Assembly (NCBI RefSeq): GCF_000024885.1
Contig: NC_013512.1
Span: forward strand, 1,116,001-1,180,000
Direction of reading: 5' to 3'
From: Sulfurospirillum deleyianum DSM 6946
GTDB taxonomy: Bacteria > Campylobacterota > Campylobacteria > Campylobacterales > Sulfurospirillaceae
DNA: 64,000 bases
The notes under the pieces were generated by a model. That model made no database searches and was not told the DNA's origin. It worked only from the letters and a program-made list of their open reading frames with translations. Both the position numbers and the translations under genes were made by a program. Positions 15,545 through 25,002 of this stretch are shown here, piece after piece (positions within the stretch are counted from its first letter, which is position 1; each line of letters begins with the position of its first letter).

Positions 15545-15670
15545 CTAATGAAAACTCTCCACCAAGCGTTGTACCAATAAATTCCATCCATCGACTAGCA
15601 CGAAAATCAGTAACTTAAAAGGCAAAGAAATCATCGCAGGGGGAAGCATCATCATACCCATTGCCATCAA
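15545..15670 (-). pseudogene. fliP: Displaced 3' end of fliP (41 codons plus stop) at the left end of the element
   Basis: Minus-strand reading gives 41 amino acids identical to the FliP C-terminus (from [13 protein letters not shown] to LVESFH), then TAG. Compared with the tail of intact fliP (24143-24268) there are 15 base differences in 126, all silent, including the stop codon. All lie at 15545-15626; the remaining 44 bp are identical. There is no start codon or upstream fliP sequence here. The simplest reading is the original chromosomal fliP end, separated from its gene when the element integrated. Confidence 0.9.
15627..15670. repeat. Left copy of the 44-bp direct repeat (candidate attachment core)
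   Basis: Exact copy of 24225-24268, same orientation. Crossover within this block explains why silent differences are confined to one side. The distance between copies gives an element of 8598 bp. A second identical block of 28 bp (15549-15576 / 24147-24174) lies outside the core. Confidence 0.8.
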
Positions 15671-15717: not shown

Positions 15718-15735
15718 GTAGATTATTTTTAGCTT
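15718..15735. repeat. Candidate integrase arm-type repeat, left end
   Basis: GTAGATTATTTTTAGCTT closely matches GTAGATTATTTTAGCTT at 24004-24020 near the right end. Short direct repeats inside each end of an integrated element are usual for arm-type sites of tyrosine integrases. The site overlaps the last codons of the integrase gene. Confidence 0.4.
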
Positions 15736-16781
15736 ATTTTGTAAATATCGACTGTCGAATCTACATTTTTTCTCTCAGCTTCAATATACCGAGAATAGAC
15801 ATTAAAAAGATATTCCGTAGTTGAATGACCTAACATTTGTGCTATATCTGTCACTTTGTATTTTCCAGAATTTAGCATATTGGTTGCAAATGTATGTCTC
15901 ATCTCATACAGCCTTCTTCGTTTGAGCCCTAACCTATCCAACAAGGGATACCAATAAGCACATGATATATTTTGTGTGTCACTCCATGGCTTTTTATCCC
16001 TACGAACAAAAACATATTCACACTGACCCGTAATCTTTCTTTGGTTGTCTAAAAATGGTTTCAATCCCTCAAATAAAGGTACATCCCTCATTGAGTTCAG
16101 TGTTTTAGGCTTCGTGTCTCTGTTAAAGTCCCTTGTCCTTCTAACACTGATGACATTATGACTAATATCATTCCATTTTAAACCAATAATTTCACCACTG
16201 CGCAAACCAGTGTAAGTAGCTACTGCGATATAGTTCTGTAACCAACCCTCAGATTCTTCAAGCAAAAGTCTCACTTCACTTTTGGAAAATGGTGTTATGA
16301 CTGGCTTTTGTATGGGCTTACGTTTGATATTGACAAACGGATTAGAACTAATCACATTGTCAAACAACGCCTCTTGAAGCAACCCACTAAAAACAGTTCT
16401 ATAAAGCTCAATACTCTTAGCACTTTTTCCTAATCCAAACTGGTAGTTCAGATACTCTTTTAAAAGGCTTGTTTTAATATCTACAACCTTTTTATGAGCA
16501 TACTTAGGAGTGATGTACTGGTCTATAATACTTTTGTATCGATAAAATGTTCTTTCCTTGAGAAAATGCTTCTTTTCTTTGATGAACCTATCGATGTAAT
16601 ACTGAAGCGTTACATTCTCGTCAGGCTTTTCGAGGCTTTGTAAAAACTTTGGCAGTATTTCTTTTTGAACCAACAAACGGTTTGCTTTTGTGTCAGCCAA
16701 CCCCGTTGTTTTTTTAACCTGAATCCCATCCAATCTAACATTCATATACAGATTACCTCTGTGCACGAAAATAGATGCCAA
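15729..16781 (-). CDS. int: Tyrosine recombinase (integrase) of the fliP-targeting element
   Basis: 350-residue phage-type integrase. It has an N-terminal strand domain, a core-binding domain (about 60-150) and a catalytic domain with Arg in TGLRSGEI, Arg-His in YEMRHTFAT (Tyr replaces the first His of HxxR, which is common), GH in QMLGHSTTEY and the nucleophile Tyr in FNVYSRY. The start is TTG 16778-16781 region (MASIFVHRGNLYMNV), with AAAGGAG eight bases before it; a longer TTG version from 16832 lacks a ribosome site. The gene abuts the left attachment core, as expected. Confidence 0.93.
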   Translation of the reverse strand: MASIFVHRGNLYMNVRLDGIQVKKTTGLADTKANRLLVQKEILPKFLQSLEKPDENVTLQYYIDRFIKEKKHFLKERTFYRYKSIIDQYITPKYAHKKVVDIKTSLLKEYLNYQFGLGKSAKSIELYRTVFSGLLQEALFDNVISSNPFVNIKRKPIQKPVITPFSKSEVRLLLEESEGWLQNYIAVATYTGLRSGEIIGLKWNDISHNVISVRRTRDFNRDTKPKTLNSMRDVPLFEGLKPFLDNQRKITGQCEYVFVRRDKKPWSDTQNISCAYWYPLLDRLGLKRRRLYEMRHTFATNMLNSGKYKVTDIAQMLGHSTTEYLFNVYSRYIEAERKNVDSTVDIYKIS

Positions 16782-16905
16782 TTGCCGAACTCCTTTCTTA
16801 TTTGCACAAGAAAAGCATTCGCAATCAATCAAGCGACAGCAAATTATATTGAAAATTTACTAAAACTACTTACTATTTTGTGCTCCTTGGCAAAGATTTA
16901 TTAGA

Positions 16906-16970
16906 TATAGTTCCATAAGAATATTTATATATATTTTATGAGAAAATAGAACTATAAAGTTTATATTAAG
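16906..16970. repeat. Imperfect 65-bp repeat A with inverted-repeat arms, upstream of the ATPase gene
   Basis: TATAGTTC (16906-16913) and GAACTATA (16949-16956) form an inverted repeat around an AT-rich centre. The whole block aligns with repeat B (19173-19235) downstream of the same gene: both read GTTCCAT, an ATATTTAT-like centre, TTTATGAG, an arm ending GAAC, then TAAAG and a TATA-like stretch. It is probably a binding site for a protein of the element, and the ribosome site of the ATPase gene sits at its end. Confidence 0.6.
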
Positions 16971-16978
16971 GTAATGCT

Positions 16979-19174
16979 TTGGTAAATAAATATGACAATT
17001 TAAAAGGTGTAGAGGTTCCTCAAGAGATTGCAGATAAAATGATTACATATACTGAAGATTTATCAGAAGAGGATCTTTTGCTAATAGAAGAACAAGCTGA
17101 ACTTTATCAACCCAATAATCAAACAATTATTAACCTAGATATCATTCCAAATTGCATCTACCCAATCTGTCCAACTCATTTTTTGATAAAAGCCACCAGT
17201 TTTCTAAAATCCAAAGGTGTTGTTCTGTCAAAAGATTTACCTGAAGTTATCAAAGAATTATGTATTGTTTTTAATAATTGTATTTCTAGTCAAAATAAGT
17301 ATTCAATGATTAGCTCAATGGTTTATCCTGCCCAAACAGGTACAGGGAAATCTCTATCGCTTCAAGTTTATGTTTCCATGCTCAAAGATCACTCATCACT
17401 TATTGTTGTATCCACTGTTGATGCAGCTATTACTTATTGTGAGACCATCAATCAACTAAGTGATGATGCCACGTATGCAAGAACCACTTATGCACTTAAT
17501 GAAAAAAACAAACAGCATATTTTAAGGGTTGAAGGTTATGCCTTAAAAGATTACAGAGCAATTGTTATTACCCATAGTATGTTTAAAAAATTGAATCAAA
17601 AAGTTGATGTCGATACTTATAAACTTTACAAAGGCAAGCAAAGAGACTTAGTTGTCATAGATGAAAAGCTATCAATGTATGAACAGTATAAAGTCACATA
17701 CAGTGATTTAGATAATTTAAAAAATAATCTAGAATCCATATTCTCAAAAGTTAAAGATTCTATAAAAATTGATCCAACACAAGCTACCATCAATTTTTTA
17801 AGTACACTACAAAACTACCTTGAAAAACGTGAAAATGACATTATTACAGATAAACAAGCCTTACGTTTCATTGGAGATGATATTTCCGACGAAGAACTTG
17901 AAACTATTGATATTAATGATTCCAGATTTTTTAAAGCATCTTGTCCGATAGTTATGATTCCAAATAAATATATTAATGATTTAATGCAGGAAAAAAACCT
18001 TGATATTATAAGCACAATCACATTGATGAAACAGCTGCTTGAAGCAAGAATCAATCAGTTATTTAGTGAAATAAAGGATTTGGGAGGTTTAGATAATCCA
18101 GTCTATAAAGAACAAACACTCAAAAACTCCTTAGAGCCAATTAGCATTTTAGAAGAGGTTTTAAATGAGTGGTTTTTACTCTATAAAAGCAATTATGAAA
18201 AGGCAATTTTTCGAGTAGGAGATATATCTCACAAGCTTGGAAAAAATGTAGTGCTAGATGCCACAGCAACCGTTAATGAATTTTACAAGATTGCCAATAG
18301 AGCTTTTGGATATGTTGGCATGTATAATGCAAAACAAATCAGAAAATATGAAAATCTCACCATTCATAAAGCCAAAGGGTTCAAACAAACAAGATATGCT
18401 TTGTATAAAAAAGGCGATGATTATACAGCCAACAATGCTAAAGTGTATGCATCTTATGCTATGTCTGTATTAACCGATGTGGATGATAAACTTTTAATCA
18501 TCTGTCATAAGACTTTCAAAAACACTCTTAAAACTACACTAGATGATCCAAGAATTGAAATGACTCACTGGGGAGATCATGTTGGCAAAAATGACTGGAG
18601 TGATTGCAATAAAGTCATGGTTATAGGTTGGAACTATTTAAACCCTTTGAAGAATATTTCAGATATTTATAATGCGGCTAGAGAAATTGATCTCGTTTCA
18701 CTTTATCTCAATGATGATATCATTGATACTTTTGTTATAACACAACTTGCTGACGATCTAGTCCAAGCCATTATGCGCTCAAAAGCTAGAACAATTGCGA
18801 CTGATGATTCTGATTGTAACCCTACGGAAGTTTATCTTTTTTATCATGATGATCCAATGAGCAACAGAGTATTGGAAATCTTTGAGAAGCAGTTTCCAAT
18901 GGCTAAAATACAACAATGGAATCCAATAGGCGTCTCACTCTCATACAAAAAGACAAAACCGATGCTCAATGCTGATAAAGTTATTGATCTATTAAAAATT
19001 AAAGAAGCTACGCAGACAACTTGCTTACTGAGTGATGTTATAGAGCAAACCTCAATTCCAAAATCTACGATGAGTCGAATTGCGACCGATGAGTACTTTT
19101 TGCAACAACTTCAGGTAAATGGTTATAGCCTACAATATAGAAACGGTAAGGAAAAATACTTTGTTCTACAATGA
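16979..19174 (+). CDS. SF2 helicase-like ATPase with C-terminal HTH, element-encoded
   Basis: 731 residues, no close family recognised. Walker A AQTGTGKS at about 118-125, Walker B-like LVVIDEK at about 224-230, a motif-III-like VLDATA near 422 and a motif-VI-like QAIMRSKAR near 597 suggest an SF2 helicase fold. The C-terminus (TTCLLSDVIEQTSIPKSTMS) looks like a winged helix. Its position suits a replication or excision protein. The start is TTG 16979, with AAGG seven bases upstream. The stop codon lies in repeat B. High A+T and Asn/Lys/Ile use set it apart from the host genes. Confidence 0.65.
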   Translation: MVNKYDNLKGVEVPQEIADKMITYTEDLSEEDLLLIEEQAELYQPNNQTIINLDIIPNCIYPICPTHFLIKATSFLKSKGVVLSKDLPEVIKELCIVFNNCISSQNKYSMISSMVYPAQTGTGKSLSLQVYVSMLKDHSSLIVVSTVDAAITYCETINQLSDDATYARTTYALNEKNKQHILRVEGYALKDYRAIVITHSMFKKLNQKVDVDTYKLYKGKQRDLVVIDEKLSMYEQYKVTYSDLDNLKNNLESIFSKVKDSIKIDPTQATINFLSTLQNYLEKRENDIITDKQALRFIGDDISDEELETIDINDSRFFKASCPIVMIPNKYINDLMQEKNLDIISTITLMKQLLEARINQLFSEIKDLGGLDNPVYKEQTLKNSLEPISILEEVLNEWFLLYKSNYEKAIFRVGDISHKLGKNVVLDATATVNEFYKIANRAFGYVGMYNAKQIRKYENLTIHKAKGFKQTRYALYKKGDDYTANNAKVYASYAMSVLTDVDDKLLIICHKTFKNTLKTTLDDPRIEMTHWGDHVGKNDWSDCNKVMVIGWNYLNPLKNISDIYNAAREIDLVSLYLNDDIIDTFVITQLADDLVQAIMRSKARTIATDDSDCNPTEVYLFYHDDPMSNRVLEIFEKQFPMAKIQQWNPIGVSLSYKKTKPMLNADKVIDLLKIKEATQTTCLLSDVIEQTSIPKSTMSRIATDEYFLQQLQVNGYSLQYRNGKEKYFVLQ

Positions 19175-19235
19175 TTGTTCCATTTGAAAATATGTATTAT
19201 TTATGAGGAAATGGAACAATAAAGCTATAATTAAG
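19173..19235. repeat. Imperfect 65-bp repeat B with perfect 12-bp inverted arms
   Basis: ATTGTTCCATTT (19174-19185) and AAATGGAACAAT (19209-19220) are perfect inverted arms around a 23-bp centre. A consensus TATAAT (19226-19231) follows. It overlaps the stop codon of the ATPase gene and is homologous to repeat A. It could be a terminator, but the long loop and the repetition favour an operator or replication/recombination site. Confidence 0.6.
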
Positions 19236-19331
19236 ATTTAATCTCTAATAATCTACCAAACACACCTACCCCACTCCTCACTTAGGAGACGTACCGCTTG
19301 GAAGAGTGTTGCGTGTTGCGTCATACCTCAA

Positions 19332-19574
19332 AAAAAGCTTTGCGAAGTTTACTGAGCGAAAGCTTTTTGAAGAGGGATGAAAGCATAAGCGCAAAAGCTC
19401 TGACAAGGGGAGGAAAGTCTCCGTATCTCTTTGTTATTTTTTTTAAACTAAAATACGATGGCTCTACGCCAATGAAGTTTTCGCTCTTTCAGAGCTCATC
19501 ATCCCTCACCCTCAGCTTTTCATTCTCGTTCATTCGATGCGCTGCGCACTCAGTCGCAAGCTCCTTCGCTTGCG
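19332..19574. other. Geneless segment with nested complementary segments (possible structured RNA or origin)
   Basis: Several pairings can be read by eye: AAAAAGCTTT 19332-19341 with 19359-19368; GAGGGATGA 19372-19380 with 19499-19507; AGCTCTGA 19396-19403 with 19489-19496, nested inside the previous one; GGAG 19409-19412 with 19419-19422; and a 7-bp CGCAAGC hairpin 19555-19561 with 19568-19574. The only long ORF here (19298-19675) is serine-rich and unconvincing. The strand of any RNA is unknown. The region could equally be a replication or transfer origin. Confidence 0.4.
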
Positions 19575-19680
19575 CTGCTCTCTCACTCCTCAATGAACGC
19601 TTCAGGCTTGGGATGACCACTTCCAACAAAAGAAGGGGTGGTGGTTGTTGCGCAAGACTTCATAATCTACGGTAGATAAT

Positions 19681-20316
19681 ACAGCTATCGACAATAACAT
19701 ACACTCCAATCTTTTAAAAAGCATACACCAACCTACACCCAATTGCATTGTAAATTATCGCACGAAATCTGAGCAGGGTAGATTCCTTTTATACCACACA
19801 ACAAGACCCTGCCCCCCCGACATCACTCCCACACAAGGATGCTTTTACACGCATATCTACACCCACACATCCCTTGATACCTCATGCTTATTTCCCACAC
19901 CATCAAAACTATCGTTTTTCTTTGCTTTTATGATGGGGTAAGGTTGCGCTTTGGTTTATCCATAAAGCTCTATCCTAAACATAGCGATTCCATCACCTTG
20001 GCAGTAGAAATAAGCCCTAAAGCGATGCGTACACAACCCATCACTCACCTTCAAAGTTAAGTCCTCTTATTTCGTAAAAATGACCTTCACAGAAGCCATC
20101 TATCGCACTCTACCCATCACCCTTATTTCACGTCCCTATTCATCGCTATTTCATTCATTCAAAAATAAAACATAACAGAAAACAACAATCTTATCCCAAC
20201 AAAGGAGGTTCCCATTCACAACCAACGTTTTATCTACGGTGCTCTCTAAAGAGTCAATCCCAATAACGATACCAAGCAATACGCAACGTATCGTTTAACA
20301 TCATAAGGAGTTTATC
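19681..20316. other. C-rich, G-poor geneless stretch before the small-gene cassette
   Basis: No credible ORF on either strand. The plus strand is strongly C-biased: in 19801-20160 I count about 112 C to 43 G. A hairpin GCAGGGT (19773-19779) / ACCCTGC (19806-19812) marks its left part. AAAGGAGGT at 20201-20209 is an ideal ribosome site without ATG, GTG or TTG at normal spacing. An 8-bp inverted repeat (20265-20272 / 20288-20295) sits just before the ribosome site of the next gene. It may be a long untranslated leader, a Rho-utilisation-like tract or an origin. Confidence 0.4.
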
Positions 20317-20676
20317 ATGCGTTACAACGAACAAGGAAAGGTGCTCGCATCATGGTATCAAGGAGAAAGTTTAGATGAATACCTCAATGCGATGTTTGGC
20401 TATTACGAAGCGGAGAATAAAGCGAGTATCTCTCCTGTAGATAAAGATGCAACCTACGAAGAGGTAGATAAGACAGTGAGTGTTCCAGCACCCACTGCGA
20501 TTGCATACCGAAGTACATTCGAAACCATTTTAGCTAAATTTGGTTTAGACTTAAGCGATGCCTCATTCGATGAAATCATCAAAGGTGACTATTATGCGGT
20601 CTTAAAGCGTCATGGACTGGTAGATAATAGTGCAAGCAATAATGTATCGTACCAAAGCTTAGGCGGTGTGATATGA
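20317..20676 (+). CDS. Small element protein of unknown function
   Basis: 119 residues, acidic, soluble, not recognised. AAGGAG lies seven bases before the ATG, so translation is likely. The C-terminal half (STFETILAKFGLDLSDASFD) is helical. It overlaps the next gene (DUF2958) by 4 bp and opens the element's small-gene operon. Similar small genes commonly sit beside DUF2958 genes on plasmids and integrative elements. Confidence 0.65.
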   Translation: MRYNEQGKVLASWYQGESLDEYLNAMFGYYEAENKASISPVDKDATYEEVDKTVSVPAPTAIAYRSTFETILAKFGLDLSDASFDEIIKGDYYAVLKRHGLVDNSASNNVSYQSLGGVI

Positions 20677-20966
20677 AGCTTTTAACCAAAGAGCTTGAAG
20701 CCAAACTACCCCCTTTGTATTCTCAAGATGGTAAAGGTGATGAAGCTCTAGCCTTGGTAAAGTTCTTTACGCCAGACTCTTCTTGGACATGGTATGCCAC
20801 GGAGTATGACCCAGTGGAGCGTGTGTTCTTTGGTCTAGTAGATGGCTTGGAAAAAGAGCTTGGGTACTTTCGTTTGGATGAACTCGAATCCATCAAAGGA
20901 CCACTGGGTCTTAGCATTGAACGTGATATTTACTTTGAGCCAACAAGGCTTTATGAGCTACGTTAA
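20673..20966 (+). CDS. DUF2958 family protein
   Basis: 97 residues that match the DUF2958 pattern closely: LTKELEAKLPPLYSQ, VKFFTPDSSWTWYATE, FFGLVDGLEKELGYF, LESIKGPLGLSIERD and the final YFEPT. The family is frequent on plasmids and integrative elements; its function is unknown. The start overlaps the upstream gene by 4 bp. Confidence 0.88.
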   Translation: MKLLTKELEAKLPPLYSQDGKGDEALALVKFFTPDSSWTWYATEYDPVERVFFGLVDGLEKELGYFRLDELESIKGPLGLSIERDIYFEPTRLYELR

Positions 20967-21070
20967 GGTCAGATTTGGGAGTAGATAGTTGTGTCATTGC
21001 ACAATGAGCATACCATCTTATCTACTCCCACCACAATAAATAAATCAATCAAAAAACAAAGGAGCAAACC

Positions 21071-21658
21071 ATGTCATTGATTCAACAAACCAACCGTTAC
21101 GCCTTAGAGCGTGATATCGAAAGTGCCAATGAAAGCAATGTTCAGTGGCTCAAAGAACGCTTTAAAGAAGTACTTGAAAGCAATAAGGAGCTCACAAGAA
21201 AGTGTGATTATCTAGGATACTCCATCCTTGGTATTGATGCAAAAGTACAGCTGTTAGAAGATGAAATCAAAGAGTTACGCTTTGTTAAAGACAAACTCAA
21301 AGGTGCAAAAGAGCTGGCATTAGAAGTAGGAGCCGAACTCTTTAGTGAATACGGCATCGCAAAACTTGAAGGGGCAGGTATTTCATCCATTACGCTCTAT
21401 CAACCCCTACAATCTCCAAAGCTCTCTCTTACCATTACCAATGAGATGGCACTTATCGAAGCTGGATTTGTAAAGAGGGTCGCAGATACCGAAGCCATTA
21501 AAGAAGCCTACCTTGGTGGTCAGTATGTAGAGTTGATTCATGCTTGTTGTGAAATTGAACTGCATGCATCCACAAGCCCTAAGCGTTTAAAGATTAACAA
21601 GCGACGAGCTGTGAACAATCTTGCTTCATTATCTACCAAAGAGGAGCAGGCATCATGA
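21071..21658 (+). CDS. Coiled-coil protein, possibly Gp157-like
   Basis: 195 residues. Residues about 20-95 are a long helix or coiled coil (WLKERFKEVLESNKELTRK, VQLLEDEIKELRFVKDKLK). A strand-rich tail has ISSITLYQPLQSPKLSLTI and SPKRLKINKRR. This layout recalls Gp157-type phage proteins linked to single-strand annealing genes, and an annealing-protein-like gene follows with a 4-bp overlap. The assignment is tentative. AAAGGAG precedes the ATG. Confidence 0.5.
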   Translation: MSLIQQTNRYALERDIESANESNVQWLKERFKEVLESNKELTRKCDYLGYSILGIDAKVQLLEDEIKELRFVKDKLKGAKELALEVGAELFSEYGIAKLEGAGISSITLYQPLQSPKLSLTITNEMALIEAGFVKRVADTEAIKEAYLGGQYVELIHACCEIELHASTSPKRLKINKRRAVNNLASLSTKEEQAS

Positions 21659-22140
21659 GTCACTCCAACGAATACTACCGACAACAAAAGGAAAATGCTA
21701 TCTCGTTCAATCCTACCACAGGTGAGATTATTACCGAAGAGCTCAGTGGCGATGAAGCACTGCTCAATGCTACCAAAAAGCAAGTGTTAAGACTGCTTAA
21801 ATCGCATGACTTTGTCCTCATTAATGGGGTGTATGAAGCTAAAAGGGATGGTCTTATCAAGATTCTCTCATCACTACCTATAAGTTATCAGTGGCAGTTG
21901 GAGAAGAGTGAACTCAAAGACAATTACGCCCATGTGGAAGGAACACTCCATGTTAAAGTAGGAGAACTTGAGCGTCAATCTTCTGGGTTAGGGATTTGTG
22001 AGCTAAAAGAACTTAAAGGTACAGGTGGACTTCATTTTATGATGGCACGAGCTGAAACCAGAGCTTTGAAACGTGCGATTGAAGTTCTGTTTGGAAGTGT
22101 TATAAACTACTATGTGCGTCACCATTTATTGGCAGCGTAG
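21655..22140 (+). CDS. Putative single-strand annealing or ssDNA-binding protein
   Basis: 161 residues. The C-terminal stretch MARAETRALKRAIEVLFG resembles the A-x-T-R-A-x-x-R-A motif of Rad52/Sak/ERF-like annealing proteins and related plasmid proteins. The middle (YAHVEGTLHVKVGELE) is strand-rich, as in those folds. It overlaps the coiled-coil gene by 4 bp. The domain call rests on a short motif only. Confidence 0.45.
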   Translation: MSHSNEYYRQQKENAISFNPTTGEIITEELSGDEALLNATKKQVLRLLKSHDFVLINGVYEAKRDGLIKILSSLPISYQWQLEKSELKDNYAHVEGTLHVKVGELERQSSGLGICELKELKGTGGLHFMMARAETRALKRAIEVLFGSVINYYVRHHLLAA

Positions 22141-22212
22141 GTAACAAGTATAGGCTCATTCTAGCTATCTAGGTGAGCCTATAATCAACTATAAAATCAT
22201 AAAGGAAATCAG

Positions 22213-22752
22213 ATGTTAAAACTTTATATTACAGACCTCAGTGCTTACAACAATGGATTCTTAGTTGGAGAATGGGTAACGCTGCCTTTAAGTGGTAAAG
22301 AGCTCTATCTAGCTATCCAACAAGTGCTTAACGAAGGAGAATACCTGTGTCAATCAGATTCAATCCATGAAGAAATCTTTATCACTGATTATGAGTGGAT
22401 GGGACTTGAACTCTTTAATGTCAGTGAGTATGACTCTCCTTGGGATGTGAATGATGATGTTGGCAAAGTATTAGAACTGAGTGAGTCCAAGCAAAAGGCA
22501 GTGGCATTTCTTCTGAGTCAACAGATTACCTACGATGTGGATGACGCTATTGGTAAAGCCGATGATGTGATTATCCATGAAAATCAAACTTTAGAAGATG
22601 TGGCGTATTATCTGCTTCAAGAGTGTTATGAGCTCGATAAATTACCGCCTATTATTGCCAATAACATTGACTACGAAGGCGTGGCAAGGGAGCTGGATTG
22701 TGATGGAAATTACTTTGAAGTGGATGGGGATGTGTTTGAATATTGTGGGTAA
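22213..22752 (+). CDS. ardA: ArdA-family antirestriction protein
   Basis: 179 residues, strongly acidic as expected for a DNA mimic that inhibits type I restriction enzymes. The family opening is clear: LYITDLSAYNNGFLVGEW, then EEIFITDYEWMGLEL and SEYDSPWDVNDDVGKV. The ending NNIDYEGVARELDCDGNYF matches the usual YIDYExxArdL region. ArdA genes travel on conjugative plasmids and transposons, so its presence supports cell-to-cell transfer of this element. Confidence 0.88.
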   Translation: MLKLYITDLSAYNNGFLVGEWVTLPLSGKELYLAIQQVLNEGEYLCQSDSIHEEIFITDYEWMGLELFNVSEYDSPWDVNDDVGKVLELSESKQKAVAFLLSQQITYDVDDAIGKADDVIIHENQTLEDVAYYLLQECYELDKLPPIIANNIDYEGVARELDCDGNYFEVDGDVFEYCG

Positions 22753-23657: not shown

Positions 23658-23924
23658 TTGGAAAATCTATATTTTGAATTCAGCGAAGAAGAAATGTCAG
23701 AGTTTTATCGCTGCATTGGAAGAAACGTTAAAAAACTTAGACAGAAAAAAGGTTTGACTCAAATGGAGTTAGGACTTGCTCTTGGTCATACAGGAGTAGG
23801 TACAATTTCTGTCTCAGAAGTTTATTACAACAAAAAACATTTTAATTTGGAACACCTTTATAAAATAGCTCACATCTTAGAAGTTGATATCTGCGAATTT
23901 TTTAAGCCCACTGAGTCAATCTGA
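23658..23924 (+). CDS. XRE-family HTH transcriptional regulator
   Basis: 88 residues, or 76 if the ATG at 23694 is used; neither start has a clear ribosome site, and 23658 is a TTG. The HTH is evident in IGRNVKKLRQKKGLTQMELGLALGHTG...ISVSEVYYN, followed by a dimerisation-type tail (NLEHLYKIAHILEVDICEFF). It is divergent from the OMP gene and probably controls it and itself through the palindromes in the gap. Confidence 0.85.
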   Translation: MENLYFEFSEEEMSEFYRCIGRNVKKLRQKKGLTQMELGLALGHTGVGTISVSEVYYNKKHFNLEHLYKIAHILEVDICEFFKPTESI

Positions 23925-24020: not shown

Positions 24021-24142
24021 TTTTAGTCAAAAAACAAAGTCACTTGATTGATTTTGACCGCAAATACTTTCTCTTGTTTAAAATAATAAATTATTATAAT
24101 TTAATATTTAGTAAAATACCAACAAACATCCTAAAATAGGCG

Positions 24143-24886
24143 TTAGTGAAAACTCTCCACCAAGCGTTGTACCAGTAAATTCCACCCATCCACGAGTACA
24201 AAGATAAGCAGCTTAAAAGGTAGCGAAATCATCGCAGGGGGAAGCATCATCATACCCATTGCCATCAACACAGAACTCACCACCATATCGATAACCAAAA
24301 AAGGCAAGTAGAGCAAAAAGCCTATCTCAAAGGCTGTTTTTAACTCACTAATCATAAAGGCGGGCATCGCGACGGTTAAGGGCACATCTTCAATATTTTT
24401 AGGGTTTTCAAGGTTACGAATACGAAAGAAGAGTGCCAAATCTTTCTCACGGGTATTTCGAATCATAAAGGCTTTAAAAGGCGCTGAGCCTTTCTCAAAA
24501 GCCTCTTGATAGCTCATTTTCTCTGCTAAATAAGGCTTAATTGCCACATCATAGGACTCTTTCATGACAGGTTCCATGATAAAAAAGGTCAAAATCATCG
24601 CCAAAGAAACCATCACTTGTGAAGGTGGCATCTGCTGTGTTCCTAAGGCTTGACGCAAAAATGAGAAGACAATCAAGAGACGTAAAAAACTGGTCATCAT
24701 GAAAATGAGTGAAGGGGCTAAAACCAAAATGGTTAAAACCAATACCAAATTCATACTGGTCACAAGCTGTTGCGGAGAGTCTGGCGCACTCAAAGAGAGA
24801 TTGACGGTCGGAATGGTGTCAGCACCAAACGCCATAGGAGTAAGGGAGAGCAAAAGCAAGAGTAACACCCTCTTTAAGTTTTTCAA
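24143..24886 (-). CDS. fliP: FliP, flagellar type III export gate protein (3' end supplied by the element)
   Basis: 247-residue inner-membrane export gate component. The signal-peptide-like N-terminus KNLKRVLLLLLLSLTPMAFG is followed by helices with the family stretches LIFMMTSFLRLLIVFSFLRQ and [20 protein letters not shown]. The start is TTG 24886: GAAGGA lies five bases upstream. The longer ATG form from 24979 adds 31 unrelated residues. Codons within 24143-24224 probably came with the integrated element: they differ only silently from the displaced original tail at 15545-15626. The protein is intact, so motility should be preserved. Confidence 0.95.
   Translation of the reverse strand: MKNLKRVLLLLLLSLTPMAFGADTIPTVNLSLSAPDSPQQLVTSMNLVLVLTILVLAPSLIFMMTSFLRLLIVFSFLRQALGTQQMPPSQVMVSLAMILTFFIMEPVMKESYDVAIKPYLAEKMSYQEAFEKGSAPFKAFMIRNTREKDLALFFRIRNLENPKNIEDVPLTVAMPAFMISELKTAFEIGFLLYLPFLVIDMVVSSVLMAMGMMMLPPAMISLPFKLLIFVLVDGWNLLVQRLVESFH
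24225..24268. repeat. Right copy of the 44-bp direct repeat, inside fliP
   Basis: Identical to 15627-15670. It encodes part of the last FliP membrane segments ([11 protein letters not shown]). Integrases that target genes usually use such conserved 3' coding sequence, and the reading frame is kept across the junction. Confidence 0.8.
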
Positions 24887-25002
24887 ATAACGTCCTTCAA
24901 TGTAATTGCATGATTTTAGTTGCTTTTGCGTTAAAAACCTTTTAATCTTTAAACAACTTTTCGTTAAAATAGACGCCAAACAATGCGTAGGAAGACCAAT
25001 TT

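Follow-up and report, generated by a model that had tools for sequence, protein, structure and literature searches.

Homologous inverted repeats around an SF2 helicase gene in an integrative element of Sulfurospirillum deleyianum: candidate targets of the element's own helicase

Introduction

In Sulfurospirillum deleyianum DSM 6946, the 3' end of fliP is occupied by an integrative element of 8.6 kb, in which two homologous inverted-repeat blocks, here called U (upstream) and D (downstream), flank the gene for a 731-residue helicase-like ATPase of superfamily 2 (SF2). The window analysed is the whole stretch of 64,000 nucleotides from contig NC_013512.1 (positions 1,116,001 to 1,180,000, forward strand), and positions are counted from its first letter. 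The reading that we consider most likely from the sequence is that U and D are DNA targets of the helicase itself, probably with the point at which copying of the element starts among them, because distant relatives of the helicase also have an inverted repeat, of a different sequence, directly after the stop codon. That a 3' site is conserved in the helicase family suggests a cognate binding site and origin. From this pattern we infer that the helicase binds the blocks, with an origin function and autoregulation as consequences.

Two Homologous Blocks in One Element

U and D have about 60 bp in common, with arms of the type GTTCCAT/ATRGAAC and a core TTATGAG-AAAT-GAAC-ATAAAG, and the right half of the homology is better conserved than the left (Table 1). 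Block U, with the conserved TTTATGAG and ATAAAG, is situated between the divergent integrase and helicase genes. The first base of block D is at the same time the last of the 731-codon helicase gene's stop codon. A first-pass annotation of this DNA had described homologous blocks of 65 bp flanking an ATPase gene; sequence and shuffles bear out their presence, at a length nearer 60 bp. The perfect 12-bp arms and the TATAAT that it gave to the downstream block are read at 19174-19185/19209-19220 and, trailing the arms, at 19226-19231.

Chance does not account for U and D. Their alignment scores 70, as against 33 +/- 5 for dinucleotide shuffles, none of which (0/2000) reaches 70. The window contains two instances of the pattern GTTCYAT-N20-34-ATRGAAC; the expected number is 0.02, and no shuffle reached two. 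A genome-wide search for more copies, proposed in the same annotation, returned exactly two, U and D, in 2.3 Mb (pattern GTTCCAT-N20-34-GAACNATAAAG; control 0). Beyond these and the genome G527, described below, the searches made yielded no other copy of the block type seen in the window, and a pattern search of viral contigs for the U/D core gave no copy. The 35 viral matches to GTTCCATTT-N13-33-AAATGGAAC are, by our estimate, within the chance range for so loose a pattern. Local alignment also picked out a D-like stretch at 24045-24134, which was set aside as a gapped, AT-rich similarity. The repeat search shows no direct-repeat array at D of the kind that marks iteron origins.

Inverted Repeats behind the Helicase Genes of Relatives

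The helicase family considered here has ten members, namely that of the window, five others from Campylobacterota (L007, L008, L015, L084 and L085), and those of Shewanella (L017), a member of the Desulfobulbaceae (L018), a phage contig (L019) and Paenibacillus (L083). Inverted repeats were looked for in the 100 bp behind each stop codon, with other genes in the same sequences as controls. In 8 of the 10 helicase genes a strong inverted repeat, its arms 16-38 nt apart, directly follows the stop codon; only 6 of 201 control genes have one that equals it in strength, nearness and spacer length. With the spacer forced to at least 12, the counts are 8/10 and 18/206 (Fisher 5.8e-7), and the Mann-Whitney test gives p 5e-4, or 0.016 with close relatives dropped. 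The 5' flanks of the helicase genes are like those of the controls (p 0.28). Inverted boxes around an AT-rich spacer are present at D and in most relatives, and most relatives have one site only, 3' of the gene, without a second copy upstream.

The repeats are alike in sequence only in related pairs (window/L084, z 9.3; L007/L085, z 8.5; L008/L017, z 6.2), and their arms have changed in a compensatory manner, as all six positions altered on both sides restore pairing (D/U, D/L084 and L017/L008). The motif is retained by the nearest relatives of the window's helicase: in L084 (41% identical) as a full dyad, ATTGTCCCA/TGGGACAAT, and in L015 as a half-site, AATGGAACAA, at the corresponding place, a match that falls short of significance when taken alone (p 0.08). 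The more identical two whole proteins are, the more similar their repeats tend to be (rho 0.36, p 0.016, the pairs not being independent). The family is small; plasmid and phage collections searched for relatives of the helicase yielded only Paenibacillus.

Several further features of these loci were observed. Behind the Desulfobulbaceae helicase, at L018 7138-7270, there are two tandem direct repeats of ~45 bp, not one inverted repeat. The L007 helicase is a second one in the S. deleyianum genome, 22-26% identical to that of the window; its element is integrated at the tmRNA gene and has an end repeat of 24 bp (L007 1279-1303 and 9944-9967). A Sulfurovum metagenome-assembled genome contains a 2-kb remnant (L016 5449-7538) with a truncated helicase gene only, between two copies of tRNA-Val.

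A Sister Element in fliP

Genome G527, from another family of the same order, possesses a fliP element with a 110-bp repeat (99%) at its ends, in which integrase, ArdA and helicase are 57%, 43% and 40% identical to their counterparts in the window. A full dyad lies 3' of its helicase gene, and a half block, AAATGGGACAAT, lies at the start of the integrase gene, far from the helicase. These are the only two exact copies of the 12-mer in the element, and only 1 of 300 shuffles has even one. To judge from the two sequences, in the common layout a first site lies behind the helicase and a second at the integrase; the flanking of the helicase gene by the blocks in the window may therefore be partly incidental, as a consequence of gene order.

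The Helicase and the Structured Region behind It

The sequence motifs of the helicase are conserved in its relatives. Pfam returns SF2 families only (DEAD/ResIII), and the DEAD match is weak (2.6e-4, below the curated cut-off). An AlphaFold2 (AF2) model places a helicase core at residues ~60-650 and a winged helix at ~660-731, the latter with a predicted local distance difference test (pLDDT) score mostly >80, which agrees with the C-terminal helix-turn-helix (HTH) noted in the first-pass annotation. Fold prediction from AF2 and comparison with the PDB are thus consistent with an element-encoded helicase that has a C-terminal DNA-binding domain. The best structural matches of the model are DinG and XPD (Foldseek E 6.7e-15; VIA Z 22.5 over 495 residues), and across the core its fold matches are SF2, DinG/XPD and DEAD-box. 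The window helicase differs from DinG/XPD in sequence (~10% identity), in its extra, predicted C-terminal winged helix and in being carried by a mobile element. No match to the helicase in NCBIfam, PADLOC or PHROGs was convincing, PADLOC assigned it to no known defence protein, and a PDB sequence search with it and with the N-terminal domain of L085 gave no meaningful match. The L085 relative, of 939 aa, has an extended N-terminus matching a phage DNA primase family (E 1.9e-4), a single weak match that speaks for a replication role.

D is followed by a long imperfect hairpin, at ~19294-19412, with z of -5.0 (RNA) and -6.2 (DNA parameters) relative to shuffles. Hairpins after the repeat are also present in L007, L017, L083 and L086 (DNA z -5.0, -2.9, -3.8 and -2.1). 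An Rfam search found no family near U, D or the hairpin, and no repeat of the non-coding stretch 19230-20310 was found in the genus. Between the hairpin region and the DUF2958 operon, the + strand of 19650-20250 is unusually C-rich and G-poor, with GC skew values as low as -0.45, for which neither a coding sequence nor an RNA family offered an explanation.

Comparison with Known Replication Systems

SF2 helicases are not usual replication initiators, herpesvirus UL9 being the clear precedent known to us. The Rep helicases of Staphylococcus aureus pathogenicity islands (SaPI) and staphylococcal cassette chromosomes (SCC) have a core of the SF3 or AAA+ type. The window shares with these systems (SaPI Rep, SCC Cch2) an element-borne helicase with repeats directly downstream of its gene, and differs in its SF2 core and its single, long-spacer inverted repeat. 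In SaPI and SCC, the origin is found immediately behind the gene of the helicase, whose C-terminal domain binds the repeats there (PMC7581432). In pRN1, the replication protein (ORF904) combines an archaeo-eukaryotic primase domain and an SF3 helicase with a C-terminal winged helix, and the origin element, a long stem-loop 3' of the rep gene, is required; its sequence diverges while its shape is kept (PMC4234260). The window resembles pRN1 in the winged helix, here predicted, and in the long stem-loop just 3' of the proposed replication gene; it differs in being SF2 and in that a primase-like domain occurs in one relative only. Specific repeats and a stem-loop directly 3' of the helicase gene are thus found in the window as well. 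Membership in the SaPI, SCC or pRN1 Rep families was considered and rejected: the fold and Pfam matches are SF2, not SF3/AAA+, and the window helicase is therefore not filed with those families, only as working like them.

Co-variation of protein and site is known from phage-inducible chromosomal island-like element (PLE) satellites, in which the DNA-binding domain of RepA and the origin vary together (PMC8263062). The herpes origin-binding protein UL9 (OBP) is likewise an SF2 helicase, and the two inverted boxes that it binds stand on either side of an AT-rich spacer (PMC12543377); these are the features that it has in common with the window. UL9 differs in belonging to a virus of eukaryotes and in having no detectable sequence relationship; the window helicase has no match to Herpes_ori_bp up to E 10. 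UL9/OBP is not among the structure matches listed for the model, which says little either way. The window element unites features of these systems: an SF2 helicase, a predicted C-terminal winged helix, inverted boxes with an AT-rich spacer 3' of its own gene, and a hairpin.

A Possible Mechanism and Its Alternatives

In the mechanism that we propose, the 731-residue helicase would be the replication initiator of the element, and U and D would be its recognition sites, each with a pair of inverted half-sites on either side of an AT-rich spacer. The candidate origin would consist of D, immediately behind the gene, and the long hairpin beyond it. The helicase may bind the inverted boxes and melt the AT-rich centre; loading or unwinding may then proceed towards the hairpin as a possible site of replication priming. 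Through U, in the divergent intergenic region, the same protein would regulate its own gene and that of the integrase, which could couple copy number to excision. That D and the hairpin form the replication origin, with U as a second site of the same protein regulating helicase and integrase, is in our judgement the most likely reading, at about even odds. The broader proposal is somewhat more tentative, falling a little short of even: that DinG-like SF2 helicases serve as their own origin-binding proteins in a family of bacterial mobile elements and phages, recognising an inverted repeat that diverges rapidly, encloses an AT-rich spacer and lies at the 3' end of their own gene, convergently with UL9/oriS, and that the fliP elements use a second copy to control the integrase.

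Several observations weigh against this mechanism. A clear 3' dyad is wanting in two relatives, L015 and L018, and the hairpin is absent or weak in L008, L015, L018, L019 and L085. The score threshold for the repeats was picked after the family had been seen; the non-redundant p, which reaches only 0.016, is for that reason the fair value. For the C-terminal domain alone, similarity is uncorrelated with that of the repeats (rho 0.05), so that recognition by the winged helix is something that we infer. The mean pLDDT of the helicase model is only 65, and the element may be defective.

Autoregulation, a replication start and the scar of a cassette insertion had all been suggested for the blocks in the first-pass annotation; the first two fit the present data and the scar has gained no support. 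On the scar reading, the blocks would be scars or recombination sites, either integron attC-like or XerCD/pdif-like, of a gene cassette that delivered the helicase gene, and two homologous sites in the same orientation do closely flank one gene. However, their arms misfit both attC (RYYYAAC...GTTRRRY) and pdif (11-6-11), most relatives have a single 3' repeat and no copy upstream of the gene, the second copy is placed differently in the sister element, and the true integration boundaries are the fliP repeats, so that we give this explanation hardly any credence. It is also improbable, to a lesser degree, that the 3' repeats are terminators or stabilisers at the mRNA 3' end of the helicase transcript, with U an unrelated look-alike. 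The repeats do sit on the stop codon, and D folds as RNA with 12 pairs (z -2.1). Nevertheless, the spacers are 16-38 nt long, there is no T-run, a terminator scan (GC-rich stem, short loop, T-run) called none at U or D, and the 3' hairpins of control genes are mostly short-looped (22/30 have loops <12 at score >=8.3); moreover, U, the homologue of D, lies 5' of the gene, and a half copy occurs at the sister integrase.

The more serious alternative, which we nonetheless consider unlikely, is that U and D are only transcriptional operators, U for the integrase and helicase genes and D for a transcript into the structured region or for the 20317-22752 operon, the regulator being the helicase or the 88-aa Cro/CI-type protein (HTH88). 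This would suit the location of U in a divergent intergenic region, the TATA-like -10 elements in both blocks (TATATT at 16962-16967 in U, the TATAAT already mentioned in D), the homologues of HTH88 in L007 and L008, and the position of the second copy in the sister element, at the integrase start. Yet the site conserved family-wide is 3' of the helicase gene and not at promoters, and promoter-like sites are not enriched (9 found vs 14 expected). The repeats follow the helicase lineage, while relatives of HTH88 accompany unrelated repeats, and the sister element, L084/L086, yielded no homologue of HTH88.

The Integrative Element in fliP

The features of the element are summarized in Table 1. 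Its length of ~8.6 kb follows from the 125-bp copies of fliP, with their identical 44-bp core, which mark its ends; an integrase and a duplicated attachment site are thus both present. The last 44 bp of attL (15627-15670), identical to attR, are the crossover core. The left fliP repeat lies 1.2 kb from U and the right one 4.9 kb from D. The cargo also includes a 1.1-kb non-coding stretch and a beta-barrel protein. Integrase relatives in the genus (L071-L075, ~35-37% identity) have no homologue of the window helicase or of fliP beside them in the stretches read.

Table 1. Features of the element in the window, and 3' repeat arms of relatives
Feature	Position	Strand	Description
attL	15546..15670	.	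displaced original fliP 3' end; 125-bp direct repeat with attR, 89% identity (blastn of flanks, repeat search)
Tyrosine integrase	15729..16832	-	PF00589 2.2e-16; adjoins attL
Block U	16906-16968	+	arms TATAGTTCCAT (16906-16916) / ATAGAACTATA (16946-16956), 10/11 paired, AT-rich spacer 29
SF2 helicase-like ATPase, 731 aa	16979..19174	+	motifs TGTGKS, VIDE, DAT, QAxxR; predicted C-terminal winged helix
Block D	19174-19234	+	perfect 12-bp arms ATTGTTCCATTT (19174-19185) / AAATGGAACAAT (19209-19220), spacer 23
Non-coding, strongly structured region	19262..19647	+	RNA z -5.3 for 19225-19700; candidate rest of origin
Operon: 119-aa protein, DUF2958, Gp157-like, 161-aa protein	20317..22140	+	conserved; syntenic with G016 element (L008)
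ArdA antirestriction protein	22213..22752	+	PF07275 1.3e-33
88-aa Cro/CI-type HTH regulator (HTH88)	23658..23924	+	PHROG phrog_3 1.3e-8; NCBIfam
fliP	24143-24979	-	kept open; FliP PF00813 1.5e-81
attR	24144..24268	.	element-borne fliP 3' end, core 24225-24268 (blastn of flanks)
3' repeat arms, L017			ACCAAAAGTGGTGAAACCCTAT/ATAGGGTTTCACCACTTTTGGT
3' repeat arms, L007			AAATTCAGTGTGGACA/TGTCCACACTGAAATT
3' repeat arms, L084			TAATTGTCCCACTT/AAATGGGACAATTA

The sequence GTAGATWATW is present in six copies in the 8.6-kb element (15718, 19247(-), 19672, 20620, 23993 and 24004) and in one copy in the other 55 kb. The copies gather near both attachment sites and are candidate arm-type sites of the integrase; two inverted copies bracket the hairpin region 19257-19671. 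The operon from the 119-aa protein to ArdA is syntenic with L008 9935-12001, in another element of the genus, and up to 79% identical, and the sequence behind the L008 helicase is unrelated to that of the window despite this shared operon, which suggests modular cargo.

Significance

The helicases of this family go without an informative family name. If the proposed mechanism is true, the compact module of a helicase plus a 3' repeat, found in Campylobacterota, Shewanella, Paenibacillus and a phage contig, would represent an undescribed replicon type, and a simple rule would serve for locating the origins of such elements, namely to look behind the stop codon.
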